Part shown: one piece after another, positions 45,455 to 62,068 of the stretch
Position numbering within the stretch: position 1 is the first letter of the stretch
Layout of the letters: each line of letters starts with the position of its first letter
Source of the DNA: Streptomyces halstedii
GTDB taxonomy: Bacteria > Actinomycetota > Actinomycetes > Streptomycetales > Streptomycetaceae
Direction: 5' to 3'
Length of the DNA: 64,000 bases
Assembly (NCBI GenBank): GCA_000720535.1
Contig: JOAZ01000011.1
Location: 1 to 64,000, forward strand
Notes under the pieces: generated by a model
Databases searched by the model: none
The model's input: the letters and a program-made list of their open reading frames with translations, nothing else
What the model was told of the DNA's origin: nothing
Translations under genes and position numbers: made by a program

Positions 45455-46056
45455 CGGGGCTCCAGGGCAGCGGCCGAACGGTCTTTCAGGTGCCGGATCA
45501 GAGTGACGAGCACGTCACGGCTGGCACTCCGGCTGCGGGCGTCGAAGGACACGACCGGCGTGTGTGACGGGATGTCCAGGGCGTCGCGGATCTCGTCGAC
45601 CGGGTAGTCCTGTGAGTCCGGGAAGATGTTGAGCGCGATGACGAAGGGGACCTTCTGCCGCTCCATCTCCTCGATCGCCCGGAAGCTGGAGGCCAGTCGG
45701 CGGGTGTCCACGAGGACGACGGCGCCGAGCGCGCCTTTGAACAGGCCGTTCCACAGGAACCAGAACCGTTCCTGGCCGGGGGTGCCGAACAGGTACAGCA
45801 TGAGTGTGTCGTTCAGGCTGATCTTGCCGAAGTCCAGGCTGACGGTGGTCTGCGCCTTGTCGGTGACACCGATGAGGTGGTCGTCCCCGGCGCTGGCCTG
45901 GGTCAGGGTCTCCTCGGTCGTCAGGGGCTTGATGTCGCTCACCGAGCGGACCATGGTGGTCTTCCCCGTGCCGAAGCCCCCGGCGATCATCACCTTCACC
46001 GAGCGTGTGTCCCCGGCCGCCGTGCTCCCGGGTTGGTCAAAGCCTTTGAAGTCCAC
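45451..46056 (-). CDS. cvnD: conservon small GTPase (CvnD)
   Basis: A 201-residue Ras-like/MglA-like GTPase. Walker A GGFGTGKTT lies at 26-34; the switch II strand reads YLFGTPGQERFWFLW, so the DxxG aspartate is replaced; the guanine-recognition region is ALNIFPDSQDY in place of NKxD. These changes are typical of conservon GTPases. GTG 46056 has GAGGAGG 7-8 bases upstream; the gene overlaps DUF742 by 20 bases and the P450 gene by 4. It is thought to signal at the membrane together with CvnA-C. Confidence 0.95.
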   Translation of the reverse strand: MDFKGFDQPGSTAAGDTRSVKVMIAGGFGTGKTTMVRSVSDIKPLTTEETLTQASAGDDHLIGVTDKAQTTVSLDFGKISLNDTLMLYLFGTPGQERFWFLWNGLFKGALGAVVLVDTRRLASSFRAIEEMERQKVPFVIALNIFPDSQDYPVDEIRDALDIPSHTPVVSFDARSRSASRDVLVTLIRHLKDRSAAALEPR

Positions 46057-46408
46057 TGAGTACCTCCTCAAGGAGCGCGATGTCGGGCCCACGGCCGACG
46101 TCATGTGCCGGGACGGGATCACGGGCGTCGACGCGGCCTGCCTCAAGCAGGTCGGACAGCAGCACCGCGAGGATGTTGAAGGGCAGCCGGAGGTGGGCGC
46201 CGAGTTCGGCCACCGACAGCGGTTCACGGCAGCGCCGGAGGATCTCCTCGTACTCGTGCTGCATGCCCGATGTGGGGACGTCCCGCGCGATGACGAGGGT
46301 CGCCACGTCCAGGGTCGACGCCGAACCGCCCGGTCCGCTGCGCCCTTTGGTGAGAACGTAGTAGCGCTCAAGGCCGGACGGGTCGGTCGGCCGACGGGGA
46401 GCACTCAT
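46037..46408 (-). CDS. cvnC: conservon DUF742 protein (CvnC)
   Basis: A 123-residue winged-helix-like protein. RYYVLTKGRSGP near the start and EEILRRCREPLSVAELGAHLRLPFNILAVLLSDLLEAGRV are the hallmark of DUF742. It overlaps both cvnB (4 bases) and cvnD (20 bases). In conservons it binds the GTPase or the roadblock protein. Confidence 0.95.
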   Translation of the reverse strand: MSAPRRPTDPSGLERYYVLTKGRSGPGGSASTLDVATLVIARDVPTSGMQHEYEEILRRCREPLSVAELGAHLRLPFNILAVLLSDLLEAGRVDARDPVPAHDVGRGPDIALLEEVLSGLQRL

Positions 46409-46815
46409 CCAGAGTGCCCCTCCAGCCGCGGCGAGGTGCCGAGGAGCTCGCCCATACGGCGGGCCAGATCCCTCATCTGATGGCCGAGCAGGCCTTGGTC
46501 GAGGCCCTCGCGGGCGAGTACGCCGAGGTACGTCTCCACCCCCGCGCGGACGACGAAGAGGTGCCCGCCGTCCACCTCGATCATCGCGAGCCGCAGCTGC
46601 CCGGCGTGCTGCGGGAACTGCTCGGCGACCGGCTGGGCCAGTGCCTGGAGTCCGGCCACCACGGCGGCGAAGCGGTCCACGTCGTCGGGGTCTTCGGCGC
46701 CGAAGGAGGTGATCGCCTTCCCGTCGCTGGAGGCCACGAGGGCGAAGCTGATCTCCTGGATGCTCTCCACGAGGTCGCGCAGCGCCCAGCTCATGTCGGT
46801 TCCCTGGTACGTCAT
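46405..46815 (-). CDS. cvnB: conservon roadblock/LC7 protein (CvnB)
   Basis: A 136-residue roadblock/LC7-domain protein: ALRDLVESIQEISFALVASSDG, the DVDRFAAVVAGLQALA helix and HLFVVRAGVETYLGVLA strand, as in MglB. It likely acts as activator or partner of the GTPase. ATG 46815 is used here; ATG 46794 (MSWALRDL) has the better ribosome site. It follows cvnA by only 4 bases. Confidence 0.94.
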   Translation of the reverse strand: MTYQGTDMSWALRDLVESIQEISFALVASSDGKAITSFGAEDPDDVDRFAAVVAGLQALAQPVAEQFPQHAGQLRLAMIEVDGGHLFVVRAGVETYLGVLAREGLDQGLLGHQMRDLARRMGELLGTSPRLEGHSG

Positions 46816-46819
46816 GGGA

Positions 46820-48508
46820 CTAGTCGCTCTCTTCAGTGCGGTGCTCGGTCGGTGCGCCACCGGCGGCCGTGCCGTGGTCGTCGGCGGCTGCGGTCGGGGA
46901 CCCGTCCGTCGCCGTGCCGGTGTCGCGTCCGGCGTCGGCGAAGGCCGCGAGGCCCGCGAAGGATGCCTCCGGCGGGACGGCCGGGAAGGCGGGGACGGTG
47001 CTCGGGCCGCCCTGGGGGGTTTCGACGGCCGTCTCGCCGCGCCGGCTCCGCCTCCGGGGCAGGCCACCGGGGGTGGTCTCCACCATGTCCTCGTTCTCGA
47101 AGACCGTGACCGGGGCCGGTTCGGGCTGCGGGGCGGCGGGCGCGGTGCCGTGCGGCGCGGCGGGCTCCGTCGAGATCGGCGGTGCGGTGGCCGGGGCGAG
47201 GGCGGGGAGCGGCCGGAAGTACTTGTGCGGTACGACGACCACGACGGACGTGCCCAGCCACGGCGAGTCCGCGAAGGTGACACGGATGTCGTACCGGCGG
47301 GCGAGGAGGCCGACGACGCGAAGGCCGATGTTGGCGTCCTCCGAGATGCCGCCGAGGCCCGCGCCGGGCGAGGTGCCCGCGAGGGCGTGTTCGGCCTCGC
47401 GCTTCTTCTCCTCGCTCAGGCCCTTGCCGGAGTCCTGGATCTCGATGCCGACGCCGTTGGGGACCTCCTTGCCGGAGACGATCACCGGCTCGGTGGGCGG
47501 CGAGTACCGCGCGGCGTTGTCGAGCAGGTGCGCGAAGATCAGCGTGAGGTGGTCCACCAGACCTCCGTCGACGCCGAGTTCGGGCAGGTGGCGCAGTTGG
47601 ACGCGGTGGAAGTCCTTGATCCGGCCGATGCCGCCGCGCACCACGCTCAGCAGGCGTTGCGGTTCCTGCCACTGCCGGCCCGGCCGGTCGGAGCCGCCGA
47701 GTACCACGATGCTGGCGGCGAGGCAGTCGGCGGGGCCGATGGCCTGGTCCAGTTCCATCAGGCACTGGGCGACGGCGGGCTGACGGCCGTGCTCGCCCTG
47801 CATCTCGTGCAGTCGGCCGCGGAGCTTGCTGGTCAGGACGTGAATGCGGTTGCCGACGCCGATGACGGCCTGTTCGGCGGAGGTCGAGCGGTCCAGCTCG
47901 GCCTCGATGCCCCTCAGCGCGGTCCTGAGGACCTTGCCCAGTCCGGCCTGGAGTTCGTCGCCGGCCTTCATGCGCTGCTCGGCGGTCGGGACGATGTCGT
48001 CGATGGCGTCGCCCGCCTTCAACTGTGCGACAGCGGCCGGGAGTTGCTGGTCGCCGAGGAGGGCGATCGCGGCGAGTTGGTGGTCGAGCCGCTCCTGCCA
48101 GACTCCGGCTCGCTCGCTGGACCGGCTCTCGTAGGCCGCGGTCTGCCGGGACAGCCGCTCCTCGTACACCCGGGAGCTCTCCGCCAGCAGCTCCTCGTGC
48201 GCCCGCGCCTGCTCGGCGAGCTGGGTCTTCTGGGCCGCGCGCTCGGTGGCGGACTGCCTGGCGTGTTCGGTCCGGGTGGTGCGGTGGGCCTCCTCGGCCA
48301 GGCGCAGCCGCGTACGGGTGCGCAGGAGGAGAAGTACGCACACGGTGCTGCCGACCGTCGCCGCGAGACCGAGGACGGCCGCGGGTATCCGGTCCGAACT
48401 GATGAATGTCGCGGCCGCTGTCCCGCCACCCAGGCCCAGTGGCATCAGCCACCAGAGGTGCCGGGTGGCAGGGGCCCGCGCCGCCGGAGGCGGAGTGGCG
48501 AGTTCCAT
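46820..48508 (-). CDS. cvnA: conservon sensor-kinase-like protein (CvnA)
   Basis: A 562-residue membrane protein. Two hydrophobic segments (about 18-55) form an N-terminal anchor, followed by a long charged coiled-coil region (about 60-130), a dimerisation part, and a histidine-kinase-type ATPase domain with N-box HLLDNAARYSPP and G-box regions (DSGKGL; GLRVVGLLARRYD). A canonical His box is not evident. The last 150 residues are Pro/Ala-rich and presumably disordered. ATG 48508 is preferred (AAAGGA 5-6 bases upstream), ATG 48514 being the alternative. It heads the conservon, one transcript of five genes to cvnE. Confidence 0.92.
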   Translation of the reverse strand: MELATPPPAARAPATRHLWWLMPLGLGGGTAAATFISSDRIPAAVLGLAATVGSTVCVLLLLRTRTRLRLAEEAHRTTRTEHARQSATERAAQKTQLAEQARAHEELLAESSRVYEERLSRQTAAYESRSSERAGVWQERLDHQLAAIALLGDQQLPAAVAQLKAGDAIDDIVPTAEQRMKAGDELQAGLGKVLRTALRGIEAELDRSTSAEQAVIGVGNRIHVLTSKLRGRLHEMQGEHGRQPAVAQCLMELDQAIGPADCLAASIVVLGGSDRPGRQWQEPQRLLSVVRGGIGRIKDFHRVQLRHLPELGVDGGLVDHLTLIFAHLLDNAARYSPPTEPVIVSGKEVPNGVGIEIQDSGKGLSEEKKREAEHALAGTSPGAGLGGISEDANIGLRVVGLLARRYDIRVTFADSPWLGTSVVVVVPHKYFRPLPALAPATAPPISTEPAAPHGTAPAAPQPEPAPVTVFENEDMVETTPGGLPRRRSRRGETAVETPQGGPSTVPAFPAVPPEASFAGLAAFADAGRDTGTATDGSPTAAADDHGTAAGGAPTEHRTEESD

Positions 48509-49303
48509 CTGCATCCTTTGAAGCAAAAATGATCGAACAGGGGGTGTGCGAGGTGACCGCACCGTTGAGTACGCACGCACCATGAGACGACCGGTCACGA
48601 TCGCGTCAACTCGCTGCGCCGGGAGGGAGCTTATCGGTTGTGAACCCGAAAAGATCAATTCGGCGGTACCGCGAGAGTGAGGATCCCGCCACTCAGAGCC
48701 ATGGGCGGCGCGGCCGGCGCGTATCCCGGGCCGGCGGCCGTTGTCCGACACGTCCTCACGTGGTGGGCAGACGGGGACATCTGCCGCGACGAGCCCCGCG
48801 CTCTCCCGGACGGGGGCAGCGAGCCGCTTCGCCGTAGCCCGGTCACCTGGGCGTTTCCGCCAGGCCGTGCCGAAGGCGCGGAGCGGCGGCCGTGGCGCGA
48901 GGGAGTGGCGGAGCCCGGGGGCGCGGCGGCCGGACCGCCGGACGGACCATGACGCGCGGGGGCGACGGGGTGCCGTTCCGGGGTGTTCCGGGAGGTGTCG
49001 GCCCGGCCCCCACCTCGCGCACACCCCCGCGACGTACATACGTGCGAACTCCGCGGTGTTTGCATCGCGGAAGCGACGTCGCGGCCGCCCGCGGTGGTGC
49101 CAGCACGGTGGATCGCGGTGAGAAGCGCATGTTTTCAGCCGAACCGAGCGGCGTCGGTGACCGCGCCCGGAGGCACGCCCCGCCTCCGGGCGCGGGTGCG
49201 CGGCCGGAGGCGGGAAGGCCGGGCGCGAGAGCTCCGAAAGCCGTTGTCAGTGGCTCCTCATAGAGTTCCGCTCACTTGTTCACAGCGGTGCGGGGAGGCA
49301 CGC
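48509..49303. other. divergent intergenic region between the conservon and the MoxR/VWA operon
   Basis: About 795 bases that must hold the promoters of both large operons. Several frames are open but without coding bias. An AT-richer patch at about 48625-48660 is the likely cvn promoter area. The last 20 bases include GGGAGG (49293-49298), the ribosome site of the DUF4132 gene. No clear -35/-10 pair could be fixed by eye. Confidence 0.45.
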
Positions 49304-50158
49304 ATGGGGTGGGTGAAGGCGGGCGGTTACGAGATCGCCCTCGACGACGGCAAGGTGGTGTGCCGCAACGCGGCGGGACGGCGGCTGAAGTCCGTTCCGG
49401 CCGGAATCGCGGACGATCCGGCGGTCGTGGGCCTGCGCGGTCTCGCCGAGTGGCTGGAGCGGCACGAGCGGCGGTGCCTGGCCGACGTGGAGCGGTGGAT
49501 GGTGCGTTCACTGCCGGTTCCGGCGGCCGTGGTGACCCGTGTGTGGCCGGATCCCGCCTGGCAGGCCGCCCTGCGCGACCTCGTCGTCACGGGACCCGAC
49601 GGAGAGGTCGCGGGATTCCTCCGGGACGCGGACCCCGAGCGGGGGCTCGGCCTGGTGGACCTGGACGGCGACACCGTGCGGATCGCCCCGGACGTCGTGT
49701 GCCTTCCTCATCCCGTGCTCCTCGACGACCTCGACGAGCTGCGGGAGTTCGCCGTCGAGCTCGGCATCGACCAGCGGGCCCAGCAGCTCTTCCGTGAGGT
49801 GTGGCGCCGCCCGGCGGCCGTGGACGCGGCGAGCACACAGGTCGAGGAGTACGCGGGCGGCTCGTTCAAGGAGCTCCGCTTCCTGCACGGCAGGGCGGCC
49901 CAGCTGGGTTACCGGGTGCGGGGCGGGCACGCCCTGTGCTCCGTGCTGGAGGAGGGCCGCACCGCCGAGGCCCGTGTGTGGATCGGCGACTACGACGGCT
50001 ACGAGGAGACCGAGACCGGTCCGCTGACGTGGAGCGGACCCACCGGGGGCACGCTGAGGCTCGGTCAGGTGGGGCCGGTCTCCTGGTCGGAGGGGATGCG
50101 GATGGCGGCCGCTCTGTACGCCGGGCGGGACATCGAGGACGAGGAGCGGGCGGCATGA
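49304..50158 (+). CDS. DUF4132-domain protein, first gene of the MoxR/VWA operon
   Basis: A 284-residue protein that looks like a stand-alone C-terminal part of DUF4132 proteins (E. coli YehI type): WVKAGGYEIALDDGKVVCRN at the start, LAEWLERHERRCLADVERWM, PDGEVAGFLRDADPERGLGLVD, and the final PVSWSEGMRMAAALYAG. ATG 49304 has GGGAGG 6 bases upstream. Its stop overlaps the ATG of the 1662-residue gene (ATGA), so the two are made together. The function of DUF4132 is unknown; it accompanies MoxR ATPases and VWA proteins across bacteria. Confidence 0.88.
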   Translation: MGWVKAGGYEIALDDGKVVCRNAAGRRLKSVPAGIADDPAVVGLRGLAEWLERHERRCLADVERWMVRSLPVPAAVVTRVWPDPAWQAALRDLVVTGPDGEVAGFLRDADPERGLGLVDLDGDTVRIAPDVVCLPHPVLLDDLDELREFAVELGIDQRAQQLFREVWRRPAAVDAASTQVEEYAGGSFKELRFLHGRAAQLGYRVRGGHALCSVLEEGRTAEARVWIGDYDGYEETETGPLTWSGPTGGTLRLGQVGPVSWSEGMRMAAALYAGRDIEDEERAA

Positions 50159-53100
50159 GCGCGACGTACGACGACACCACGACGGGCACGCTGCTGGAGG
50201 CGGGCGCCGTGCTGCTTCCCGGCACGACCGCGCGGGAGGACGCCGACACCCTGACCGTGCGGTCCTACACGCATCCGGCCCTGGACGGCCGGCGCGTGGT
50301 CCGGCTGGTGCCCGGCACGCTCGGGGAGGCGGAGGACCTCGCGCTGGAGTTCCTGGGCCTGGCCCGCGAGCCGGAGGCCCCCGAGGTCGGGCAGGTGCGC
50401 CGGGAGACGCTCGGCTTCCCGGCCTGGGCGCTGGTCAACGACCCGGCCAACGGGCACCACGCGCTGGCCCTGGTCAAGGACGTCGAGCGGCTCGCCCGCC
50501 AGGCCAAGTCCCGCCCGGGGAACGCGAAGGCGGGCTTCGAGGCGCTCGGTGTCCGGCTCGGCCGGGCCGTCCCGCACTTCCTGCCCACGTTCTACGAGCA
50601 GGCGGCCCGGGTCTTCCTCCAGCACGAGAACACGACGTACGCCGCCGCCTTCTTCGGCAAGGCGCGCGAGGCGGAGCGTGTGCACGCGCTCGCGGTCGAC
50701 GAGGAGCGGCAGCGCGCGGTCTTCCTGGAGTTCGCGTTCGCCGGTGCGCTGACGGTCAAGGCGCTGAAGGAACACGTGCGGGACCTGTCCCGGCGGCTCG
50801 ACCCCGCCGAGGCGTGGGCGCAGTTCCGGCAGTTGACCGTGGAGCGCTGCGCGGCGGGAATGCCGCCGTACGCCTCGCTGCCGCAGGACGCCCGCGGTCT
50901 GGTCAGGGCCGCCGGTCTCGACCGGGTCGCCGAGGAGTGCGCGCTCGTCGCCGACCTGCTGGCCTCCCCGGCCGCCGTGCGGGCCCCGGCCTCCTTCTGG
51001 ACCGCCTACCGGGCCACGCTCCCGGTTCTCACCGGGCGCCGGCCGGAGGTGCGGACGCGGCTGCTGGAGATCATGCCCACCGGGCTGGGCCGCGGTGTCG
51101 AGGACGACGAGCTCTGGCTGACGCTGCTGGCGGAGAGCGGCGCGGAGGCGCTGCTGACCTCGGAGCCCGGCGACGGGCAGGCGGTGGACGCCGCGGACTG
51201 GCTGAGCCGCTGGTCGCTGCACCGCAAGCACGGCGCGTCCTGGTCGCGGAGCTCCCCGGCCACCCTGGCGCTCGTCGGGCGGATGGCGCCGCGGCTGCGG
51301 GCGGCCGGACGGCCCGTCGATCTGTTCAGCGGCCGCTGGCACGCGGGCGCGGACCTCGATCTGCTGGATCTGTGCGTGGCCGAGAACATTCCGCTCACGT
51401 TGCCCGCCGCCGGCGTGAACGTGCATCTGGCGCTGGATCAATGGCTGCCCGGCGCCACCGGGCCGTCCGTCCGGCGGGACCTGGTCGCCACCGGCGCCGA
51501 TCCGCGGTTCCGGGCTCTGCTGCACCGGGCGGTGGGCGCTCTGGGCAGCGGCCACCGGGCGCGCCGCGAGGTCCTGGCCGCCCTCGCCGCCCACCCCGTG
51601 CTGCGTGAGGTGGCGCGCGAGTGGCTGGAGGAGGCGGCCGGGGAGTACACCGGCGCGGTGGGTCTGCCCGGGGCCGGCACGGCGCTCGACCGTCTGCGCG
51701 CCTTCCGGGCGGTGGCCGCCGATGTCGCGCCCGGCGCCGTCGCCAGGACCGCCGGGCACGCGCTCGCGCCGCTGCTCGGCCGTACCCTGCGCGCCGGCAT
51801 CCTCGACGAACTGGGCTGGCCCGCCCTGGAGAAGGCGTTGCGGAAGCTCGACGCCGAGGTGCGCAAGGGCGAGGACAACACCCTGGCCGTGCACGAGGCC
51901 TGGCCCGCCCTGGTGCTGGTCCGTGGCCGCAGGGCGGTCGTCGTCGGGCCCGAGAAGGTGCTGCTCGAACACGACCTGTGCCTTCCGGACGAGATCGACC
52001 ACTGGCAGCGCCCCCGGTTCCGTTACGTGGACGGGGAACTGCTCGTGATGTGGCGGCAGGGCGGCAAGCAGTCGGCGTACTGGTCCGCCCGCCCGTCCGA
52101 CGTGTTCACGCTGGGCGGCGAACAGTTGGCCCAGTGGTGGTCGGGGCACGACGCCGAGACCGTGTCGATTCCGCTGCCGGGCGGCGGACGGGCCACCGGC
52201 GGCCGCGTGCTGCACGCGGGCGACACCGACCTGCCGCCCCGCCGCGCCGTCATCGGTGACGGAACCACCTGCTGGCGTCAGGGCAGGCAGGGCCGGCGGA
52301 CGCTGTGGCTGGAGTACGACCCGGCCACCGGCGCCCACGGGCGTGCGTCGCTGCCCGCCCTGCTGCGTTCCGGTGTCCTGGAGGGTGCTTCCCTGCTCAC
52401 GGACGCCTGCGAGGTGCTGCCCGTGCAACCGGGCCTGGAGGAGAGCCCGTTCGGCACGGACGGCACGGTGCTCGGCCGGTGGGTACGCGAGCAGGGCGAG
52501 GGGGCCGAGGCCCGGATGACGGCCGGGACGCCGGACGGCCGGACGGTCACCCTGCGCGCGGACGGCGACGGCCGCATCCCGGGGGTCCCGCTGGGCGCGC
52601 TGCGGCTGCCCGGCCGGGCCGCACCGTTCGCCGTGCGGACGCGTGCGGACATCTCCCTGTTCGCCGGGGCCGGGAGTTCCGGTGCGGGACCGCTCGGCCG
52701 GGTCACGCCGTGCGAGCGGGGCGGCGAGTTCGCCGCCGGTACCCGGCTCGTGCCGCCGGTCGCCTTCTGGCACGCGCTGCGCCCTCGCGACGAGCGGGGC
52801 TCGGCCGTGCTGCGCGCGCTGACCGACGAGCGGGCCGGCGAGCTGATGCGGGCCGCCGCGGAGGCGTTGGCCCAGCGGCAGGAAGCACTGACCCAGGCCC
52901 GGTCGGACGATGCCGCCAAGGCCGCCGTACCGTCCGCGGACGAGGCCGTCCTGCGTGCCGTGACCCGGCTCCTGCCGCGGCTCACCGCGCAGCCGCTGCT
53001 GATCGGTGTCGCCGCGCTCGTCCGTTCGGCACTGCGCCTCGCCGACTCCGCGGCCACGTTCACGGCACCGCCCGTGGAGCAGCCGCCGTCCCGGCGGAAA

Positions 53101-55143
53101 CAGGGGATGTTCGCGGACTACGCGCCCGAGCACGGCGAGGACCATCTGATGCGGAACGCGACCTCCCGCGTCGCGAACCTGCACGGAGGGTGGGGCGGTG
53201 AGCGGTTCGGCGTGCTGCGTCAGATCCGGGCGGTGAACCATGTGCTGTCCGGGAAACCCGCGGACGGCAAGCCGCTGCCCGACCCCGAGCGGCTCACCGC
53301 TCTGGGCGACGGCTGGCGCAGTGAGGAGTTCACCGTCCCCGGCATCGGCACGGTGTGGACGGATGCCCTGGCCGTGCTGCGGCCGCTGGCGTACCGGGCC
53401 GCCACCCCCGCCTTGGGCGCCGACGAACGCGAGGCGCTGCTCCTGCTGTTCGGGGCGGTCCTCGAAGGTCCGCTGGCCACGCCGGGCGACACGCTCCGCG
53501 AGGTCGTGCTGAGCGAGCCGCACGACAAGCGGCAGCGCACGGGGCAGGTACTGCGCCGTGACGGCCGCACCGTGGTCGTGCTCGGCTGCCAGAACGCCGA
53601 CGCGGGGCAGAACCGGGTGGACTGGCTCGCGCTGGACCACGACCCGTCGGGTGCCTTCGGGGCGGTGGCCCACTTCACGCTGGAGCGGGAGACCCGGCAC
53701 GCCTCGACGATCACCGCCGAACACCTGGCCGAGGTCGTCCGCCTGGTCCGGGACAAGGGAGCCGCGCCCTGGCTGCCCGAGGCTCCCGAGGCGTTCGCGT
53801 CCGCCGCGCGCGACGGGCTCGGTCCGCTCCAGGCCGGTGTGCTGCTGGCCGCCGAACCGTCCCCGTGGGAGGCGGCGGCGCTCGCCGCCGTCGGCCTGAA
53901 GCGGCGGCAGGTGCAGGCCGGTGAGGACCTGCTGGCCCCGGTCGGCCACGCGGACCGGGTGGCACTCGTCGGTGCGCTGCTCCCCCGGGACCCCGCCGAT
54001 CTGTGGGTGTCCGGCCCGGACACGGCGGCGGCGGGCCGGATGTGGGTGGAGCGGCTGGGCCATCTGGTCCGCCTGCCGGAGCACATCGCGGGGGAACTGG
54101 CGGGGGCGCCCGTCGCCTCGGTGGAGGCGGTGCTGAACCCCCGGCAGACCCCCTGGCTCAGCCGGAGCACGGTTCAGCGGCCGGACAAGGACGGCAACCT
54201 GGTCGCCGCGGATCCCTCGGCCGTACCCGCACGGCACACCGTCCAGCACGCCGTCGGCGCCCTGGCCTCCCTCGCCTACGTCCTGCCGTACGGGCACCCG
54301 CTGCGCGCGGCCCTGCCGGACGGTCTGGCCGCGCTGCGCCGCCGCTTCACCGACCCGGAGCTGCTGCTCGACCTCGACATCGAGTGGACGGAACAGGGGC
54401 GTTCCACCGCCCGGGAGCTCCGCACGGCGTACGGGCTCCCCGCCTCCGGGCAGGCCGACGCGCAGGGGTTCACCCGGGTCGGTGAGGCGATCGTCCTGCG
54501 GCCCTGGTTCCAGGACACCGAGACCGTTCTGGTCCGGCCGGCCGGACTCACCGGCTGCGACGACCCCGTGTTCGGGCTCGTCGAGGGACTGGTCCACGCC
54601 GGACGCTCCGGGGGGATGCGGGCTCTGCGCACCGTCCTGGGCGACGACCTCCTCCGTGCTGTCACCGCGGGCGCCGGGCGACCCGCGGGATACGCCCAGG
54701 ACCCCCTGGTCAGCGTGCCCGGTCTCGTCGCGGAGGTGGCGTCGGCGCACGGTCTGGGCGAGGACGCGGCCGCTCTCTACCTCCAGTTGCTGGCACTGCC
54801 GGACCCCACGGACCGCAATCGCGCCCGGTGGACCGGCTGGAAGCCGGCGCGGGCCAAGAGGGCCCGCGCCGAACTGGCCGCGACGGACCTGGTGGTCGAG
54901 GCCAAGCGCCCGCGGGCCGGACGCACGCTCTTCCTGCCCGGTGGCTGGCTCGACCTCAAGTCCCCCGCGCTGCCGGTGGAGGCCTGGAAGGAAGGGCTCT
55001 ACGCCGTGGACGCACACGCGCGGTCCGTCCCGCCGGTTCCGGTGGACGAGCTGTTCCACCGCGCCTGGGAGCGGGTTCGCACCGAGGACGCCCCGGCGTA
55101 CGAGCAGCTCACCACCCGTGCCACCCGCAAGGGGCGCCGATGA
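50155..55143 (+). CDS. very large unknown protein (1662 aa) of the MoxR/VWA operon
   Basis: A 1662-residue soluble protein, coupled to the DUF4132 gene by a 4-base overlap and followed by the MoxR gene after 88 bases. The first 500 residues are helical with repeat-like units (FYEQAARVFLQHENTTYAAAFFGKAREAERVH; LTLLAESGAEALL), recalling TPR/HEAT solenoids; the middle (about 590-760) is beta-rich with many Trp, Gly and Arg (RRAVVVGPEKVLL, FRYVDGELLVMWRQGG); later parts repeat both themes. No catalytic motif, signal peptide or membrane span was found. By position and size it is the likely substrate-recognition or scaffold component handled by the MoxR-VWA pair. Family not recognised. Confidence 0.85.
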   Translation: MSATYDDTTTGTLLEAGAVLLPGTTAREDADTLTVRSYTHPALDGRRVVRLVPGTLGEAEDLALEFLGLAREPEAPEVGQVRRETLGFPAWALVNDPANGHHALALVKDVERLARQAKSRPGNAKAGFEALGVRLGRAVPHFLPTFYEQAARVFLQHENTTYAAAFFGKAREAERVHALAVDEERQRAVFLEFAFAGALTVKALKEHVRDLSRRLDPAEAWAQFRQLTVERCAAGMPPYASLPQDARGLVRAAGLDRVAEECALVADLLASPAAVRAPASFWTAYRATLPVLTGRRPEVRTRLLEIMPTGLGRGVEDDELWLTLLAESGAEALLTSEPGDGQAVDAADWLSRWSLHRKHGASWSRSSPATLALVGRMAPRLRAAGRPVDLFSGRWHAGADLDLLDLCVAENIPLTLPAAGVNVHLALDQWLPGATGPSVRRDLVATGADPRFRALLHRAVGALGSGHRARREVLAALAAHPVLREVAREWLEEAAGEYTGAVGLPGAGTALDRLRAFRAVAADVAPGAVARTAGHALAPLLGRTLRAGILDELGWPALEKALRKLDAEVRKGEDNTLAVHEAWPALVLVRGRRAVVVGPEKVLLEHDLCLPDEIDHWQRPRFRYVDGELLVMWRQGGKQSAYWSARPSDVFTLGGEQLAQWWSGHDAETVSIPLPGGGRATGGRVLHAGDTDLPPRRAVIGDGTTCWRQGRQGRRTLWLEYDPATGAHGRASLPALLRSGVLEGASLLTDACEVLPVQPGLEESPFGTDGTVLGRWVREQGEGAEARMTAGTPDGRTVTLRADGDGRIPGVPLGALRLPGRAAPFAVRTRADISLFAGAGSSGAGPLGRVTPCERGGEFAAGTRLVPPVAFWHALRPRDERGSAVLRALTDERAGELMRAAAEALAQRQEALTQARSDDAAKAAVPSADEAVLRAVTRLLPRLTAQPLLIGVAALVRSALRLADSAATFTAPPVEQPPSRRKQGMFADYAPEHGEDHLMRNATSRVANLHGGWGGERFGVLRQIRAVNHVLSGKPADGKPLPDPERLTALGDGWRSEEFTVPGIGTVWTDALAVLRPLAYRAATPALGADEREALLLLFGAVLEGPLATPGDTLREVVLSEPHDKRQRTGQVLRRDGRTVVVLGCQNADAGQNRVDWLALDHDPSGAFGAVAHFTLERETRHASTITAEHLAEVVRLVRDKGAAPWLPEAPEAFASAARDGLGPLQAGVLLAAEPSPWEAAALAAVGLKRRQVQAGEDLLAPVGHADRVALVGALLPRDPADLWVSGPDTAAAGRMWVERLGHLVRLPEHIAGELAGAPVASVEAVLNPRQTPWLSRSTVQRPDKDGNLVAADPSAVPARHTVQHAVGALASLAYVLPYGHPLRAALPDGLAALRRRFTDPELLLDLDIEWTEQGRSTARELRTAYGLPASGQADAQGFTRVGEAIVLRPWFQDTETVLVRPAGLTGCDDPVFGLVEGLVHAGRSGGMRALRTVLGDDLLRAVTAGAGRPAGYAQDPLVSVPGLVAEVASAHGLGEDAAALYLQLLALPDPTDRNRARWTGWKPARAKRARAELAATDLVVEAKRPRAGRTLFLPGGWLDLKSPALPVEAWKEGLYAVDAHARSVPPVPVDELFHRAWERVRTEDAPAYEQLTTRATRKGRR

Positions 55144-55231
55144 GGTGCGCCCGGCCGCTCGTCCCCGGAAGTGGCGGGCCACGCCCGGCCACCGCAACCA
55201 CCATCCGTACCACCCCGAAGGGCCCCAGCCG

Positions 55232-56401
55232 ATGACCACCGCCCTCGCTGCCGGAGCGACCCGCCAGATCGTTCCGCCGGAGGACCGCCACTCCACCGAA
55301 CTGGCCTTCCTCGCCGCGTACGACACGGGGCCGCGCCCACCGGCCTGGCGCCTCACCCCTCGTGCCGTCGTCACGTTCGTCATGGGCAGTGACGGCCGTG
55401 CGCTCAGGCTGCCCGACGAGGCGGAGGCGCCTGCCGGAGTGCCGCGCCGCCTCACGGTGCGGGGCAAGTTCGTCGGTGACCGCGCCCTGGTGGAACGGTG
55501 TGTCGTCACCCTCGCCGGTGAGCGCGGGCTGCTGCTCGTCGGCGAGCCCGGCACCGCCAAGTCGATGCTCTCCGAGCTGCTGTCCGCCGCGGTGTGCGGT
55601 ACCAGCGGGCTGGTGGTGCAGGGCACCGCCGGGACGACCGAGGACCAGCTCAAGTACGGCTGGAACTACGCCCTGTTGCTGGCACAGGGGCCGAGCCCGC
55701 AGGCGCTGGTGCCCTCGCCGGTGCTCACCGCGATGACCCGGGGCGCCGTCGCCCGGGTCGAGGAGGTCACCCGCTGTCTGCCCGAGGTGCAGGACTCCCT
55801 GGTGTCGCTGCTGTCCGAGCGCCGCATCGCCGTCCCCGAGCTGGCGGGCACGGACGACGCGCTGGCCCACGCCGCGCCCGGTTTCAGCCTCATCGCCACG
55901 GCCAACCTGCGCGACAAGGGTGTGTCCGAGATGTCCGCCGCGCTCAAGCGCCGCTTCAACTTCGAGACGGTGGGCCCCATCGCGGACCTGGAAGCCGAGA
56001 CGGCGCTGGTGCGTGCGCAGGCCCGTGCCTCCGTGGAACGGGCCCGAGCGCCCTTCCAGGTCGACGACACCGTCCTGGAGGCGCTGGTCACGGCCTTCCG
56101 CGATCTGCGGGAAGGACGGTCGGCCGAGGGCTGGGAGGTGGAGCGGCCGTCCACGGTGATGAGCACGGCCGAAGCCGTGTCCGTGGCCGGTGCGCTGGCG
56201 CTGTCGGCGGCGTACTTCCCCGGTGACCGTGACGTGCTGGACCTGCTGCCGGGCCACCTGCTGGGTGTCGTGCGCAAGGACGACCCGGCCGACGCCGCCC
56301 GGCTGCGCGGCTACTGGGACGGCCCGGTGCGGCGCCGTGCCGAGCAGGGGGCCGCCACCTGGCGCACCTTGTGGGACCTGCGCACGGTCCTGGAAGGCTG
56401 A
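55232..56401 (+). CDS. MoxR-type AAA+ ATPase
   Basis: A 389-residue AAA+ ATPase of the MoxR/YehL kind. Walker A GEPGTAKS is at 104-111, the Walker B strand reads GAVARVEEVTR (about 171-181; Glu where Asp-Glu is usual), sensor 1 is in FSLIATANLRDKG, and the arginine finger is in AALKRRFNFETV. MoxR proteins form hexamers that remodel target proteins together with VWA-domain partners; a VWA protein is encoded next. ATG 55232 follows the 1662-residue gene by 88 bases, and the VWA gene starts 4 bases after its stop. Confidence 0.95.
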   Translation: MTTALAAGATRQIVPPEDRHSTELAFLAAYDTGPRPPAWRLTPRAVVTFVMGSDGRALRLPDEAEAPAGVPRRLTVRGKFVGDRALVERCVVTLAGERGLLLVGEPGTAKSMLSELLSAAVCGTSGLVVQGTAGTTEDQLKYGWNYALLLAQGPSPQALVPSPVLTAMTRGAVARVEEVTRCLPEVQDSLVSLLSERRIAVPELAGTDDALAHAAPGFSLIATANLRDKGVSEMSAALKRRFNFETVGPIADLEAETALVRAQARASVERARAPFQVDDTVLEALVTAFRDLREGRSAEGWEVERPSTVMSTAEAVSVAGALALSAAYFPGDRDVLDLLPGHLLGVVRKDDPADAARLRGYWDGPVRRRAEQGAATWRTLWDLRTVLEG

Positions 56402-56405
56402 TCCC

Positions 56406-59400
56406 GTGTCTCTCGCTCCCCTCTCCCCCGAGGCGGCCGTCGCCGCCCTGACCGGCCCGGCGGGGCCGTACCTCATCGGTGTACGGCACCACGCGCCGTC
56501 GCTGGCCGCGGTGGTGCCCGCGCTCCTCGACGAGGCGCGGCCCGACGTGCTGCTCGTCGAGCTCCCCGCCGAGGCGCAGGACTGGCTGCCCTGGCTGGCG
56601 CACGAGGAGACGCGTGCCCCGGTCGCTCTGGCCGCTGTCCCCGGCGACGGACGGGGCGGCCCCGCCTTCTATCCCTTCGCCGACTTCTCACCCGAGCTGG
56701 CGGCGATCCGCTGGGCCGCGCGGCACGGGGTCCCGGTGGTCGCCTGCGATCTCCCGCTGGCCGACCGCCTCCTCGGCGAGACCCGGTCTGGGCAAGGGGA
56801 GCCGGGAGAAGGGGAGCCGGAACCGGAGGCCGGGGCCCGGGAGCGGGAGCCCGCCGCCGGTCTGGCCGCCGCACTGCGCGACGGTCTCACCGGCCGCCCC
56901 GGCGACGACCTGTGGGACCGGCTGGTGGAGGCCATGGCGCCGGGCTCGACGCCGGAGGCCCTGCGCAGGGCCGCCCTGGTGACCGGGTGGGCGCTGAGGC
57001 AGGACGCCGCCGCCTCCGGTGGGCTCGACGCGCTGGATCTCCGGCGCGAGTGGTGGATGCGTTCCCGCCTGGCCGAGGCCACCGCCGACGGTGCGCGCGC
57101 CGCCATGGTGGTGGGCGCCTTCCACGCTCCGGCACTCGTGGACTCCGCCCGGTCGGGGGCCGGGGCCGACCCCGCCATGACCGGCCCGCTTCCGGCCGGT
57201 ACGGCTCCCGGTGGGCGGACTCCGCCCGGGGAGGCCGCCGGACCGTTGCGGGGGCCGCGTCCCTCCGAGCCGTGCCGGCCGGACGGCCGGGCCTCCCGGA
57301 CGCCACCCGTACCGTGCCCGTCCAAGGGCGGGCCGGGGTGGACGACCTCTCTCATCCCCTACACCTACGCGCTCCTCGACGAACGTTCCGGCTACCCGGC
57401 GGGCATCCGTGACCCGGAGTGGCAGCACATGGTCCTGGGCGCGGCGGGCGATCCCGCCGCGCTGGAGGAGGCGCTGACCCGTGCGGCCGTGCGGATCTGC
57501 GCGGAACTGCGCGCGCTGGGCCATCCGTCGGGCCCCGCCGACGCGCGGGAGATCGTCCGGCTCGCGGGGGACCTGGCCCGGTTGCGGGGGCTGCCCGCGG
57601 CCGGGCGGGGTGAGCTGGTGGAGGCGGTCCAGACGGTGCTGGCGCAGGGCGAGCCCTACGGCCGGGGCCGGGCCGTGGCACGGGCGATGGAGAGGGTGCT
57701 GGTCGGCACCCGCGCCGGGCGCCCCACACCGCGCTCGCCGCGCAGCGGTCTCGGCCCGGCCGTGGAGGCGGAGCTGGCCGCGCTGGGACTCCCCGGCCCC
57801 AAGGAGTCGGGGCCGGGTTCGGCGCGTGACCTCCGGCTGGACCCGCTCCGGTCCGGCCTGGACCGGCGCCGGGAGCTGCTGCTGCGCCGGCTCGCGGTGT
57901 GCGGTGTGCCGTACGCCGAGGCCAAGGAGGTCGTCGGCGCGGGCGGCGCGGATGCTCTCACCTCGCGGTGGGAGGTGCGCTGGACACCTGCCACCGCCGC
58001 CATGCTGACCGCCGCCGGTGTCCGGGGTGTCACCGCGGCGCAGGCCGCCGAGGGCGTGCTGCGTGAGAGGCGCCATGCCGAGCGGGAGGAGGGCGGCCCC
58101 ACCGCCGCGCAGACCTCGGACGGACTGGAGCAGGCGGCGCGGTGCGGTCTGTCCACGCTCACCGACGAGCGGCTCGCCGACACCGCCGCCGTGTTGCCGC
58201 ACTCGGCCACCCTTCCTGAGCTCCTCTCCGCGCTGGCGCTGCTGGACCGGCTGCGGGCCGGTCATGTCCCGGGGCTCGAAGCCGACGAGGGCCGCTCCCG
58301 CCGGGCGGCCGCCGTGACCGAGTCGCTCATGGCCGCCGCGGTGCGTCAGCTGGACGGCCTGACCGGCGCGGAGGACCCGGACGACGCCCGCGCCCTGGTC
58401 GAACTCGCCCACCGCGCGGACCTCGTGGGCGGCACACGGCTCACCGCGGCCGTCGCCCGGCTGGCCGCCGACGGCTCACCGCTGATGCGCGGCGCCGCCG
58501 GTGCCGTCCGGGTGCTGCTGGGCCACGAGGTACCCGGCGAGCTGGGCCGCCGGGTGGCCTCCTGGCTCGACACGGCGGGCGATCCGGAGTCCCGCTCGGC
58601 CCTCGCCGCCCGGCTCACGGGGCTGCTCAGCGCGGCGGGCCCGCTGCTGGAATCAGCGGCGCCCGCGTTGGAGCCGCTGCTCGACCGGGTGTCGGAGCTG
58701 TCCGACCGGGACTTCCTCGACCGGCTTCCCGCGCTGCGGGGCGGCTTCGACACGCTGAGTCCCGCGGCCCGCGAACGCCTGCTCGACACCGTCGAAGAGC
58801 GTCTGGAGGACACCCACCTGGGCGACACCGGGCACGTCGACCCGGTCACCCTGGCCCTGTGGACCGCCGCGGACCTGGCGGCCCGCGAGACGCTGGCCGC
58901 GCAGGGCCTCCTCCTGCCGCCCCCGCGTCCGACAGCCCTGGCCCCCACCGCCGACACGGCCACCGGGGAGGGTCACGGTGCCGGCGGCCACGGCCACGCC
59001 CCCCGTACGGGACGGCGCATCGCGCCCGCCGACCGCTGGAGGCTGGTCCTGGGCCGCCGTACCGACAGGCTCCCCGAGTCGGCCCGCCCCCTGGCCACCG
59101 CGTTGGACGAGCTGTACGGCAGCGGACGCGGCGAGGGCAGCAGGGGCGGCCTCACCGGCACGGGACGGGGCGGCGGCCGCGAGGCGCCCTATCCCGGGGT
59201 GCGGGAGTGGTCCGAGGAACTGGCGGCCCTGTTCGGGCCGGGCATCCGGGAGGAGGTGCTGGCCGCGGCCGCCGCGGCGGGCCGGCACGACACGCTTGCC
59301 GAACTGGATCCACACGGCGTACGGCCGTCCGTCGATCTGCTGCGCTCCGTGCTCCGGCACGCGGGAGGGCTGCCCGAGAGCCGGCTCGCCGCGCTGCGCC

Positions 59401-60122
59401 CGCTCGTCCGGCGGCTGGTGGAGGCACTGACCCGGCAGTTGGCCACGCGACTGCGTCCCGCGCTGCACGGCACGGTGCTGCCGCGCCCGAGCAGACGGCC
59501 CGGGGGCGGCCTCGACCTGCCCCGGACACTCCGGGCCAACCTGGCGACGGCACGGCGCGGACCGGACGGCGTGGTGCGGGTGATTCCGGAGCACCCGGTC
59601 TTCCGCACGCGCGCCCGGCGCACGGCGGACTGGCGGCTGATCCTGGTCACCGACGTGTCGGGGTCCATGGAGCCGTCCACGATCTGGGCCGCGCTCACGG
59701 CCTCGGTACTGGCCGGGGTGCCCGCGATCTCCACGCACTTCCTGGCCTTCTCCACCGAGGTCATCGACCTCACCGACCACGTGGACGATCCGCTGTCCCT
59801 GCTGCTGGAGGTCAGCGTGGGCGGTGGCACCCACATCGCGGCGGGTCTCCGTCACGCCCGGGAGCTGGTCGCGGTGCCGTCCCGGACCCTCGTCGTGGTC
59901 ATCAGCGACTTCGAGGAGGGCTATCCGGTCGGTGGGCTGCTCACCGAGGTCCGCGCCCTGGCCGGTGCCGGATGCCACGTCCTGGGCTGTGCGAGTCTCG
60001 ACGACTCGGGGCGGCCCCGCTACTCCACCGGGATCGCGGCGCAGGTGGTCGCGGCCGGGATGCCGGTGGCCGCTCTCAGTCCGCTCGAACTCGCCCGCTG
60101 GGTTGGGGAGAAGATCGCATGA
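56406..60122 (+). CDS. DUF5682 - VWA fusion protein (1238 aa)
   Basis: A 1238-residue protein starting at GTG 56406. Residues about 1-300 and beyond match DUF5682: YLIGVRHHAPSLAAVVPALL, RPDVLLVELPAEAQDW, VPVVACDLPLAD, AMVVGAFHAPALV. A low-complexity Pro/Gly/Arg linker is found around 260-310. The last 250 residues hold a von Willebrand A domain with the MIDAS motif DVSGS (VTDVSGSMEPS), the threonine in GGGTHI and the acid in VVISDFEEG, so metal-dependent partner binding is intact. In E. coli the corresponding parts seem to be two proteins (YehM and YehP). The stop overlaps the next ATG (ATGA). Confidence 0.92.
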   Translation: MSLAPLSPEAAVAALTGPAGPYLIGVRHHAPSLAAVVPALLDEARPDVLLVELPAEAQDWLPWLAHEETRAPVALAAVPGDGRGGPAFYPFADFSPELAAIRWAARHGVPVVACDLPLADRLLGETRSGQGEPGEGEPEPEAGAREREPAAGLAAALRDGLTGRPGDDLWDRLVEAMAPGSTPEALRRAALVTGWALRQDAAASGGLDALDLRREWWMRSRLAEATADGARAAMVVGAFHAPALVDSARSGAGADPAMTGPLPAGTAPGGRTPPGEAAGPLRGPRPSEPCRPDGRASRTPPVPCPSKGGPGWTTSLIPYTYALLDERSGYPAGIRDPEWQHMVLGAAGDPAALEEALTRAAVRICAELRALGHPSGPADAREIVRLAGDLARLRGLPAAGRGELVEAVQTVLAQGEPYGRGRAVARAMERVLVGTRAGRPTPRSPRSGLGPAVEAELAALGLPGPKESGPGSARDLRLDPLRSGLDRRRELLLRRLAVCGVPYAEAKEVVGAGGADALTSRWEVRWTPATAAMLTAAGVRGVTAAQAAEGVLRERRHAEREEGGPTAAQTSDGLEQAARCGLSTLTDERLADTAAVLPHSATLPELLSALALLDRLRAGHVPGLEADEGRSRRAAAVTESLMAAAVRQLDGLTGAEDPDDARALVELAHRADLVGGTRLTAAVARLAADGSPLMRGAAGAVRVLLGHEVPGELGRRVASWLDTAGDPESRSALAARLTGLLSAAGPLLESAAPALEPLLDRVSELSDRDFLDRLPALRGGFDTLSPAARERLLDTVEERLEDTHLGDTGHVDPVTLALWTAADLAARETLAAQGLLLPPPRPTALAPTADTATGEGHGAGGHGHAPRTGRRIAPADRWRLVLGRRTDRLPESARPLATALDELYGSGRGEGSRGGLTGTGRGGGREAPYPGVREWSEELAALFGPGIREEVLAAAAAAGRHDTLAELDPHGVRPSVDLLRSVLRHAGGLPESRLAALRPLVRRLVEALTRQLATRLRPALHGTVLPRPSRRPGGGLDLPRTLRANLATARRGPDGVVRVIPEHPVFRTRARRTADWRLILVTDVSGSMEPSTIWAALTASVLAGVPAISTHFLAFSTEVIDLTDHVDDPLSLLLEVSVGGGTHIAAGLRHARELVAVPSRTLVVVISDFEEGYPVGGLLTEVRALAGAGCHVLGCASLDDSGRPRYSTGIAAQVVAAGMPVAALSPLELARWVGEKIA

Positions 60123-62068
60123 GCCAGTCCCTTCCGCCGGTCGCCCCGTCGGTGACCGCCGAGCTGATCGCGGCGCTGTCGCCCCGGCTGAGCAAGCGCC
60201 TGGACGGGGGCGTCGGCAAGCTGGCCGGCCTGCCCGTCGTCCGGGACGGCGACACAGCGCGTATCGCGCTCGACGACACCACCGCGGTCGAACTCCACGC
60301 GCCGGGCGGCGTGGTGCGCAGCGCCGACGCGATCCGCTGCGGCTGCCTGCTGGCCCCCGCCTGTCTGCACCGCGCCGCCGCGGCATCGGCCGCGCCGATC
60401 GCCGCGCCCGGTCCCGGCACCGATGCCGTGGACCCGCACGCCGACCTCCCGTCGCCGCCCGTGGCCTCCGCACCCACCGACTCCGGAACCGGCCCGCCGG
60501 GCCCCGCACCCGCGCCGGTACAGGCGCGGCCGACTCCTCCCGCGCAACGGGACCCGGGCGTTCGGCCGGACACGGCAGGGCGACCCGGCACCGGGGTACC
60601 GCCGGCCGCGGCGACGGCGGACGGACCGGCGGCGGAGGTCTCCGACAGCGCCACACCGAACCAGCGCACGGCCGCCCGTGCGCTGTACGACGCCGCGGCC
60701 GCCGTGCTGGAGGCGGGCACCGACGGGTCCGGTGCCGTGCTCCAGGCCGAGTTGCTGCGTGCCGCGCACACCGCCCGGACGGCGGGGCTCCCCCGGCCCG
60801 CCGCCGCGGCGGTCTCCGTGGTCAACGCGGTGCGCGCGGCCCGTGGCGCCGACCCGGCGTACCGCCTCACCGACCTGGTGTCCGCGCTCCGCGACACGCT
60901 GGCCGCGTCCCACCGGATACCGGCGGCGACCGGCGGGGAACTGACCGCGCTGCGGGGCACCTCGCGGCAGCCGTACGTACCGGACGGCTCGCTGCGCCTG
61001 TACGGCCTCTTCTGCGAGCCGGTGCTGACCGCGACCGGATACGCGGGGGCCGTGACGTGGACCGCGGACTCTGGGGGGCGCCTCTACACGGTGTCCGATG
61101 TGGCGCCGGGGGGAGTCGGCCGGGCGGTGGGCGCGGCGGACCGCGCGGTACGTATCGGTGACACGGCACTGACACACCGCGAGTTGTCCCGCGCTGGCCT
61201 CGCGGTGTCCGGCGCCACCGTCTCTCCGACCGGGCGGCTCGGCGCGGGTGCGAGGGTCCGGGCGGTGCGGGCCTCCGGTGCCGACTGGAACGGGCCGCCC
61301 CTCGACCACCTGTGGGCCGTACCCGTCGCCGAGCAGGTCTCTCGCGCGCTGGACGGCGACGGGCACGGTCTGCTCTTCCTCGACATCGTGATCCTGGGCA
61401 CGGTGCATGAGGCGGCAGGCGACGTCCTGCTCGCCGACTGCGACGGGCTGCCGGTCCGGCTGGCCGTCGCCCACGACGATCCGGGGCTCCCCCACCGCGA
61501 CAACTTCCGGCACCTGGCGGCCGCCCGGGGTGCTCGGCTGCGCGCCGTCGCCCGGCTCAGCCCGGCACCGCACGCACGCGCCCTGCTCCTCGCGACGGGC
61601 CACCCCACGGATCCGGGCGCCCGGGTGGACCTGGGCCTGGACCGGCTCCAGCACGCCGACCTGCCGGCCCTCCCACCGCCCTCACCCACGGCGGCGCCGC
61701 CCGGAGCCGACGAGGCTCCGCTGCACCTGCTGAGCCGTCGCGTCCACCAGGCCGCTTCCGGCGGCCGCCGGGTACTGGCGTTCCCTGGCGCCGGGTCGGC
61801 AGACGGCAACCGCCTGCGCGGATGCGGTCTCGCCACCGCGGCGGAGCTGCTGGACGCCTTGCGGACAGCCGCCGCAGAGCGCGCCCGTGATCCGTTCGGC
61901 CGTCTCCTGCCCGCCGACACGGGCCTGTTCGCCCGCGCCTGGCTCGCCGCGGCCCGGTACACGCAAGAGATCGACCGCGCATGGTGTGCCGCCGCCTGGA
62001 ACGCCGTGCGGGCCACCGCCCCCGCACCGGCGCCCCGTAGGAACCGCCCGCACGACCCCGGCCGGTGA
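60119..62068 (+). CDS. SWIM zinc-finger protein, last gene of the MoxR/VWA operon
   Basis: A 649-residue protein. Near residues 74-85 it has CGCLLAPACLHR, a CxC-x6-CxH SWIM zinc finger, after LIAALSPRLSKRLDGG. A Pro/Ala-rich linker (about 90-180) is followed by helical and beta parts with no recognised catalytic motif (VLQAELLRAAHTARTAGL; LFLDIVILGTVHEAAGDVLLADCDG). SWIM fingers bind DNA or protein. It overlaps the VWA gene by 4 bases. E. coli YehQ, at the end of the yeh locus, also has a SWIM finger. Confidence 0.9.
   Translation: MSQSLPPVAPSVTAELIAALSPRLSKRLDGGVGKLAGLPVVRDGDTARIALDDTTAVELHAPGGVVRSADAIRCGCLLAPACLHRAAAASAAPIAAPGPGTDAVDPHADLPSPPVASAPTDSGTGPPGPAPAPVQARPTPPAQRDPGVRPDTAGRPGTGVPPAAATADGPAAEVSDSATPNQRTAARALYDAAAAVLEAGTDGSGAVLQAELLRAAHTARTAGLPRPAAAAVSVVNAVRAARGADPAYRLTDLVSALRDTLAASHRIPAATGGELTALRGTSRQPYVPDGSLRLYGLFCEPVLTATGYAGAVTWTADSGGRLYTVSDVAPGGVGRAVGAADRAVRIGDTALTHRELSRAGLAVSGATVSPTGRLGAGARVRAVRASGADWNGPPLDHLWAVPVAEQVSRALDGDGHGLLFLDIVILGTVHEAAGDVLLADCDGLPVRLAVAHDDPGLPHRDNFRHLAAARGARLRAVARLSPAPHARALLLATGHPTDPGARVDLGLDRLQHADLPALPPPSPTAAPPGADEAPLHLLSRRVHQAASGGRRVLAFPGAGSADGNRLRGCGLATAAELLDALRTAAAERARDPFGRLLPADTGLFARAWLAAARYTQEIDRAWCAAAWNAVRATAPAPAPRRNRPHDPGR

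Follow-up and report, generated by a model that had tools for sequence, protein, structure and literature searches.

A five-gene operon of Streptomyces halstedii

The DNA analysed here, hereafter the window, consists of the first 64,000 nucleotides of one contig (JOAZ01000011.1) of Streptomyces halstedii, whose genome of 7.7 Mb is distributed over 105 contigs. Positions 49304-62068 hold an operon of five open reading frames (ORFs), all on the forward strand, which encode a DUF4132 protein, a giant protein of no known family, a MoxR-type AAA+ ATPase, a DUF5682::VWA fusion protein and a SWIM zinc-finger-type protein, and which are preceded by a predicted promoter of a DNA-damage type. A first-pass annotation had described this set as a relative of the yehI-yehQ genes of Escherichia coli and as one multiprotein machine; the promoter did not figure in it. 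All five ORFs were recovered at the coordinates first noted and with the same tight junctions: ATGA overlaps join the DUF4132 gene to the giant gene and the DUF5682::VWA gene to the SWIM gene, and gaps of 88 and 4 bp separate giant from MoxR and MoxR from DUF5682::VWA, respectively.

The first gene (49304-50158) encodes a stand-alone DUF4132 protein of 284 amino acids, an identity confirmed by Pfam (PF13569, 5e-28), which hhalign equates with the C-terminal end of YehI-type proteins (probability 96.5, E 9.4e-10). The large YehI/MolR-type DUF4132 protein that is usual in the YehL class is absent from the operon. The second gene (50155-55143) encodes the giant, which, as originally described, is a protein of 1662 amino acids without known family (no match in Pfam, PADLOC or NCBIfam). 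It shows no homology to YehI-type proteins, and its candidacy as the missing half of YehI was rejected with hhalign probabilities of 0.2 against YehI alone and 0.7 against 60 YehI-type ORFs. An AlphaFold2 model of giant residues 560-1662 (mean predicted local distance difference test, pLDDT, of 80; predicted template-modelling score 0.62) includes an all-beta, apparently propeller-like region at about residues 578-850 (51886-52704). For this part Foldseek placed a nuclear-pore chain first (E 6e-4, but with a root-mean-square deviation of 51 Å) and the N-terminal propeller of Nup133 second (E 1.7e-3, probability 1.00, template-modelling scores 0.15/0.32), with more propellers behind, a weak but one-sided signal that suggests a beta-propeller. 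The role of scaffold or target adaptor once proposed for the giant is plausible in the light of this weak match, and unproven. Sequence searches for relatives of the giant, DUF4132 and DUF5682 in the PDB gave none that was convincing.

The MoxR-type ATPase of the YehL class (389 amino acids, 55232-56401; AAA_5, 1e-36) is 46% identical to E. coli YehL and contains the expected Walker A motif (GEPGTAKS), together with a Walker B VEE and a sensor-1 IATAN. Its Walker B is VEE and not DE, both acidic residues being invariant in 11 aligned MoxR rows that include E. coli YehL, and a pattern search for an arginine finger in this protein found no match. Among PDB sequences the MoxR profile matched midasin best (E 5e-18), which favours an extraction-type action, and NorQ was among its distant relatives.

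The fourth gene (56406-60122) encodes a protein of 1238 amino acids in which DUF5682 (Pfam, 1e-217) is fused to VWA_CoxE, as seen also in the alignment of relatives. The VWA domain (59439-60104; VWA_CoxE, 8.5e-66) ends five residues before the C-terminus, and its metal-ion-dependent adhesion site (MIDAS) is complete, as had been claimed, with the residues of DVSGS, GGGT and SDFEEG, and conserved among relatives. An AlphaFold2 model of DUF5682 (983 residues, pLDDT 77) consists of an alpha/beta domain at the N-terminus and a body of helical repeats; in the PDB it found no significant match by fold (nothing reaching 1e-3, the top matches being mainly helical repeats) or by sequence. The N-terminal domain (56448-57443) carries a putative TraB/TIKI-like signature (GVRHH, E, REWWM, GAFH). 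RH, a Glu, RE..M and GxxH stay the same throughout 28 diverse sequences; in the first motif, xRH follows a G in 15 of them and a P in 13, and the second GxxH, the Glu and the Arg do not vary. Two GxxH motifs with a conserved Glu and Arg are what we take to be the trait of TraB, TIKI and ChaN, and TraB, DUF5694 and ChaN presumably form one superfamily. Besides DUF5682, the Pfam families matched by more than one of these 28 domains were TraB (4), DUF5694 (3), ChaN (3) and YAcAr (2), with best E-values for the first three of 0.02-0.04. The alignment of E. coli YbaP to the domain was confined to the second GxxH, and the TraB family, sought in the genus as a comparison set, was found in 0 of 61 genomes.

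The last gene (60119-62068) encodes the SWIM zinc-finger-type protein of 649 amino acids. Its motif CGCLLAPACLH (60338-60370) follows the CxCx5CxH pattern and the protein aligns to YehQ-type proteins (hhalign probability 98.7, E 1.5e-16), which upholds the initial assignment although no Pfam model, that of SWIM included, was reached.

Conservation of the unit and of its promoter

The conservation of this arrangement was assessed in 30 loci, comprising the window, 19 from a search with the giant and 10 from a phylum-wide search with DUF4132; the 19 were chosen from the better matches, and fragmentary matches on short contigs (G017, G039, G050 and G051 being examples) were left out. The giant query matched in 29 of 61 genomes, our own and weak matches included, with strong relatives present in 13 of the 36 genomes from the same genus, and the phylum-wide DUF4132 query in 14 of 396. 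Gene calling relied on a simple GC-codon scorer. In 27 of the 30 loci the order DUF4132, giant, MoxR, DUF5682::VWA, SWIM is kept, the exceptions being L040, at a contig end, L048, with DUF4132 and giant only, and L087, which is degraded. The SWIM motif is likewise present in 28/28 loci examined, L040 and L048 being without that stretch. This recurrence is not due to chance: the five-gene set is a real, conserved unit. It probably moves as a cassette, because few flanking genes are common to the loci and a Streptomyces plasmid carries an apparently whole five-gene set with its promoter. A search of the flanks for partner genes found no neighbour, MoxR apart, in more than 6 of 71 loci or 4 of 29 giant-type loci. 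In the neighbour clustering, for which MoxR and its antisense frame were not masked, these two made up the largest clusters; the next, response-regulator and sensor-like families, reached only 6/71 loci, with a giant-type maximum of 4/29, and a sixth partner gene was rejected.

Giant-like genes of 1531-1640 amino acids also occur alone (L028:6753-11420, L029:7606-12201, L030:5998-10857 and L031:6202-11124); the 19 kb retrieved for each gave no match to a gene of the MoxR operon. A duplicate of the giant N-terminal half, without Pfam match, lies between giant and MoxR at L050:8523-11447, and a fused ORF of DUF4132 and the giant N-terminus, with its own promoter element, lies upstream of the operon at L047:17306-19342 on the reverse strand.

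RecA-NDp, whose consensus we take to be about TTGTCAGTGGC-N6-TAGGGT, is the LexA-independent damage promoter of Actinobacteria, and a predicted promoter of this RecA-NDp/PafBC type, TTGTCAGTGGC-N6-TAGAGT, precedes the operon, with the sequence TTGTCAGTGGCTCCTCATAGAGT at 49244-49266 of the forward strand, 37 bp 5′ of the DUF4132 ATG. If TAGAGT is the -10 box, TGTC would fall near -26, and a PafBC-specific -26 motif has been described (PMC11804915). PafBC acts through RecA-NDp (PMC8223512, PMC6789036), which is not limited to mycobacteria (PMC8223512): in S. coelicolor it is found before recA and the UV-inducible SCO6735 (PMC5087735), and in M. tuberculosis it has been tied to mitomycin induction (PMC2897130). 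The S. halstedii genome contains pafA (PafA, 2e-186) followed by two tandem WYL genes, here taken as PafB and PafC, for which no NCBIfam model matched at 1e-5. A consensus scan found no sigma-70-type promoter and no terminator, and a scan of positions 40000-64000 with Rfam found no RNA element. LexA control in Streptomyces was rejected, a scan that reached up to 500 bp upstream having found no GAAC-N4-GTTC either in the window or in 19 relatives.

The element was sought in two forms. The strict one ([TC]TGTC-N12-TA-N3-T, within 250 bp upstream) precedes 25 of the 30 orthologous operons; four of the others are one base off (L045 and L082 in a relaxed scan, L044 and L046 by eye), and the fifth is the degraded L087. 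Among 241 other upstream regions it was found in four, one of which belongs to the second DUF4132 gene of L047 and another to an operon whose start was called too far downstream (L085), and it matched 0.1% of block-shuffled copies and no reversed ones. The narrow form (TTGTCAGTG-N8-TAG-N2-T) has eight sites in the 7.7-Mb genome, and none when the pattern is read backwards. These sites precede this operon, ung and xth (by NCBIfam), recA, a probable extracytoplasmic function (ECF) sigma factor and a probable ABC permease (all three by eye), and in two cases no identified target (L053, L058). The probable ECF sigma factor gene is at L056, with the element upstream of 466-1455 on the reverse strand. 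From its promoter, induction of the operon by DNA damage is strongly predicted.

The YehL class in other lineages and phyla

The YehL subfamily of MoxR proteins is already known (PMC3893208). In E. coli K-12 the genes are ordered yehI (DUF4132), yehL (MoxR), yehM (DUF5682), yehP (VWA) and yehQ (SWIM), the same order as that of their homologues here. The suggested kinship is borne out by homology to YehL, YehM (2.9e-20), YehP (3e-58) and YehQ, and for DUF4132 to the C-terminal end of YehI only. The two sets differ in that DUF4132 is the end of a 1210-residue protein in E. coli and a separate protein here, in that DUF5682 and VWA are separate there and fused here, and in the giant, which has no detected E. 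coli relative. Both have a DNA-damage-type box upstream, before yehF in E. coli, although it is of LexA type there and of PafBC type here.

A search for YehL-type MoxR proteins in many phyla confirmed 579 loci, of which the best 80, each spanning at most 21 kb, were analysed. Among these best 80, DUF5682 accompanies MoxR in 71, VWA in 67, SWIM in 66 and DUF4132 in 62, and all four partner families occur together in 58, which contradicts the notion that homologues of these genes are mostly found apart; the giant occurs in none. The order DUF4132-MoxR-DUF5682-VWA-SWIM is found in 43, with DUF4132 behind or between in others, and the protein that contains DUF4132 usually exceeds 1000 residues and in some cases has a WGR domain. 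In nine of the 80 (L135-L137, L139, L140, L144, L145, L147 and L150), eight of which form one clade, none of the four partners was detected. One E. coli copy (L183) lies on the conjugative plasmid NZ_CP103756.1, where IS26 copies flank yehI and the MoxR, DUF5682, VWA and SWIM genes, with resistance genes close by.

A MoxR tree was built from 92 rows and given a midpoint root for display only. The nine giant-type rows included from the 30 make up a single clade (100/100) with a long branch. The actinobacterial YehI-type rows group with proteobacterial YehL rows, apart from the giant type. Because of this placement, the giant type looks like an old separate branch and not like a recent change of the local YehI type.

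The YehI-type systems of Streptomyces, Lentzea, Micromonospora and others have the same partner families as the operon and a RecA-NDp-type element; they differ in their large DUF4132 proteins (some with WGR), the absence of the giant and their separate MoxR clade. The strict element is present in 19 of 26 such loci, with 22 matches on the operon strand against one on the opposite strand in 511 kb. Twenty of the 22 are at most 400 bp before the called start of a DUF4132-sized or MoxR gene, and the other two (L106, L124) are near a DUF4132 ORF start. Five of the seven loci without it come from Glycomyces, where the operon runs past the left end of the fetched DNA. Across 54 non-actinobacterial loci the same pattern gave 13 forward and 11 reverse matches, with 0 near a DUF4132 start. 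Matches to GAAC-N4-GTTC were seen near genes in four actinobacterial YehI-type loci (L104, L106, L121, L125).

There is a second locus of this kind in the S. halstedii genome (C13, L025:7392-15947), with MoxR, DUF5682 and VWA genes beside sucCD and a divergent DUF5691 gene, and relatives of it (MoxR identity 85-92%) are found in 27 of 30 same-genus genomes. It resembles the operon in these three families and in a RecA-NDp-type element on the divergent arm, and differs from it in lacking DUF4132 and the giant, in its separate VWA gene, in its MoxR, which is on a further deep branch of the tree, and in having no element that faces MoxR. Its element, TTGTCAGTGGTGCCTTCTACCGT, is at 10663-10685 on the reverse strand, directed away from MoxR and toward the presumed SWIM and DUF5691 genes. 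The presumed SWIM ORF (9384-10754, reverse strand) may be broken; the part of it that was scanned contained no CxCxnCxH. In the 30 loci of this second type (our own, 27 same-genus and two same-order loci), the strict element faces away from MoxR in 25, and is missing from the same-order pair and three same-genus loci; the genes behind it were identified in our own genome only.

Beyond the Actinobacteria, a LexA-type box (CTGGATAAAATTACAG) stands 9 bp before the start of yehF in E. coli, which we take to be the published LexA box of molR, and another, CTGGATAAAAACACAG, stands 8 bp before the start of a WGR-DUF4132 gene of Klebsiella grimontii. Other matches to LexA patterns were scattered: a Lachnospiraceae locus (L149) has one at a distance of 248 bp upstream of MoxR, and a Paenibacillus locus (L157) has GAAC-N4-GTTC ahead of SWIM. 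In the literature, molR is listed as LexA-regulated (PMC11039860) and appears among SOS genes (PMC3978071), and yehF rises by 0.8 to 1.1 log2 units 25-120 min after ciprofloxacin (PMC11002266). In D. radiodurans, DRA0166 (DUF4132) is up with mitomycin C and not in an irrE mutant (PMC8533742). A plasmid copy of D. taeanensis was rejected as evidence of DdrO control, being of the DUF5691 type without DUF4132. Lower levels of MoxR1, MoxR2 and a von Willebrand protein, at most possible members of the YehL class, were reported for an M. smegmatis pafBC mutant (PMC5656591).

A candidate damage-switched remodelling machine and its rivals

On balance, we consider it probable that the operon encodes a remodelling machine of the YehL class, built on MoxR and VWA, that DNA damage switches on, because its promoter resembles the element found ahead of recA and further genes of DNA repair. 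Damage would produce single-stranded DNA, which would activate PafBC and through it the operon, and the MoxR protein would form a ring. In midasin and NorQD the client docks through the MIDAS, and the VWA domain on the DUF5682 protein may dock a client in the same manner, selected by the DUF4132 protein and the giant with its predicted propeller-like and helical parts. A protein complex trapped at damaged DNA or close to it is the probable client. Contacts with DNA or protein might be made by the SWIM protein, and the putative TraB/TIKI-like domain of DUF5682 may contribute hydrolysis or ligand binding that depends on a metal. The ring would then pull the client apart or off the DNA, with repair, checkpoint or programmed death as candidate outcomes. 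A parallel is midasin (Rea1), the top PDB sequence hit for the MoxR profile, which shares the AAA ring and the MIDAS domain; it differs in that it is a single, very long polypeptide of eukaryotes and acts on pre-ribosomes.

More tentatively, and with somewhat less than even confidence, this operon may belong to an unrecognised DNA-damage-response pathway built on the MoxR-VWA motor in several phyla. Its switch would be a PafBC-type promoter over three lineages of Actinomycetota (the giant type, the YehI type and the DUF5691-type core locus), LexA in enterobacteria, and DdrO for the DUF4132 part in Deinococcus. Such a pathway would clear or process protein complexes at damaged DNA, as a counterpart of midasin-type extraction, and the giant type would be an old branch in which a propeller protein replaced the WGR-bearing YehI part.

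Several observations weigh against a damage-response machine. The element was not found at the solo giant-like genes (L027-L031), and the strict element faces MoxR in 0 of the 30 second-type loci. Outside the Actinobacteria, the only clear boxes that the four LexA patterns searched for revealed ahead of a first gene were those of E. coli and Klebsiella. The TraB/TIKI assignment of the DUF5682 N-terminal domain is a lead, drawn from matches that are individually insignificant. An initial search suggested that the PafBC motif of M. smegmatis is not conserved in S. venezuelae (PMC9380542), and the significance of the rise of yehF after ciprofloxacin is not visible in the text of its source (PMC11002266). 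Finally, three of the eight narrow sites lie before the probable ABC permease or without an identified target. These three sites, together with the near-universal presence of the second locus in the genus, speak for a general vegetative promoter before a housekeeping chaperone without link to damage, a reading that we hold to be very unlikely given the rarity of the element, with eight sites in 7.7 Mb, its retention before three lineages of the YehL class and its sharing with recA, ung and xth.

The five genes are inherited together as one set and may encode the single multiprotein machine first proposed; the metal-insertion and conflict or defence roles that accompanied that proposal are unsupported. 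A chaperone for metal or cofactor insertion like NorQD or CoxDE, in which MoxR and VWA open a target enzyme for its metal and which is damage-induced only incidentally, would fit the CoxE type of the VWA domain, NorQ among the distant relatives of MoxR, and a DUF5682 domain that may be of the TraB/ChaN metal or haem type. It is quite unlikely, since any candidate client neighbour recurs in at most 6/71 or 4/29 loci and since, to our knowledge, the NorQD and CoxDE systems are without DUF4132, DUF5682 and SWIM. An anti-phage or damage-triggered suicide system, killing or arresting the cell upon DNA attack, would account for the patchy occurrence of the unit (strong giant relatives in 13/36 same-genus genomes), its plasmid copies and the different flanks of its loci, and the P-loop of MoxR is the GXXXTAKS of two classes of MoxR-vWA conflict systems (PMC7159879). 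The MoxR-vWA beta-propeller ternary system, which has this P-loop, further resembles the operon in its VWA partner and its large component with a propeller, predicted here in the giant; there, however, the VWA protein itself bears the propeller, the main text of that source does not include DUF4132, DUF5682 or SWIM (PMC7159879), and the bpMoxR model scored 19 bits on our MoxR, below its cut-off of 27. We regard a conflict system as unlikely: PADLOC, applied to the operon proteins alone, gave no meaningful match to a known defence system (MoxR to REase_II, E 0.014, being the only one), there is no variable effector domain, the parts aligning over their full length in the rows compared, no neighbour but MoxR recurs in more than 6/71 or 4/29 loci, and 50,697 phage records held one unannotated match.

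In the literature searched, which covered few subscription papers, none of the matches listed describes this system or its link to PafBC, and DUF5682 is mentioned in none of its 5.39 million papers. The YehL-class set is known but uncharacterised, and within the scope of these listings the giant-type variant and its proposed function are new. As far as that literature goes, the yeh/molR genes of E. coli have had no explanation so far, and the promoter offers the first testable function for the whole class. It also suggests that the LexA-independent damage regulon of Streptomyces would include, in addition to repair enzymes, a large machine of the AAA+ type, and it bears on the existence of such a response in Streptomyces, which, according to PMC9380542, remains to be shown.

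Elsewhere in the window, a row of histidine-kinase-like, Roadblock/LC7, ATP-binding and weakly P450-like genes on the reverse strand (44210-48343) resembles a Streptomyces conservon, and there is a terpene synthase gene at 42980-44017.

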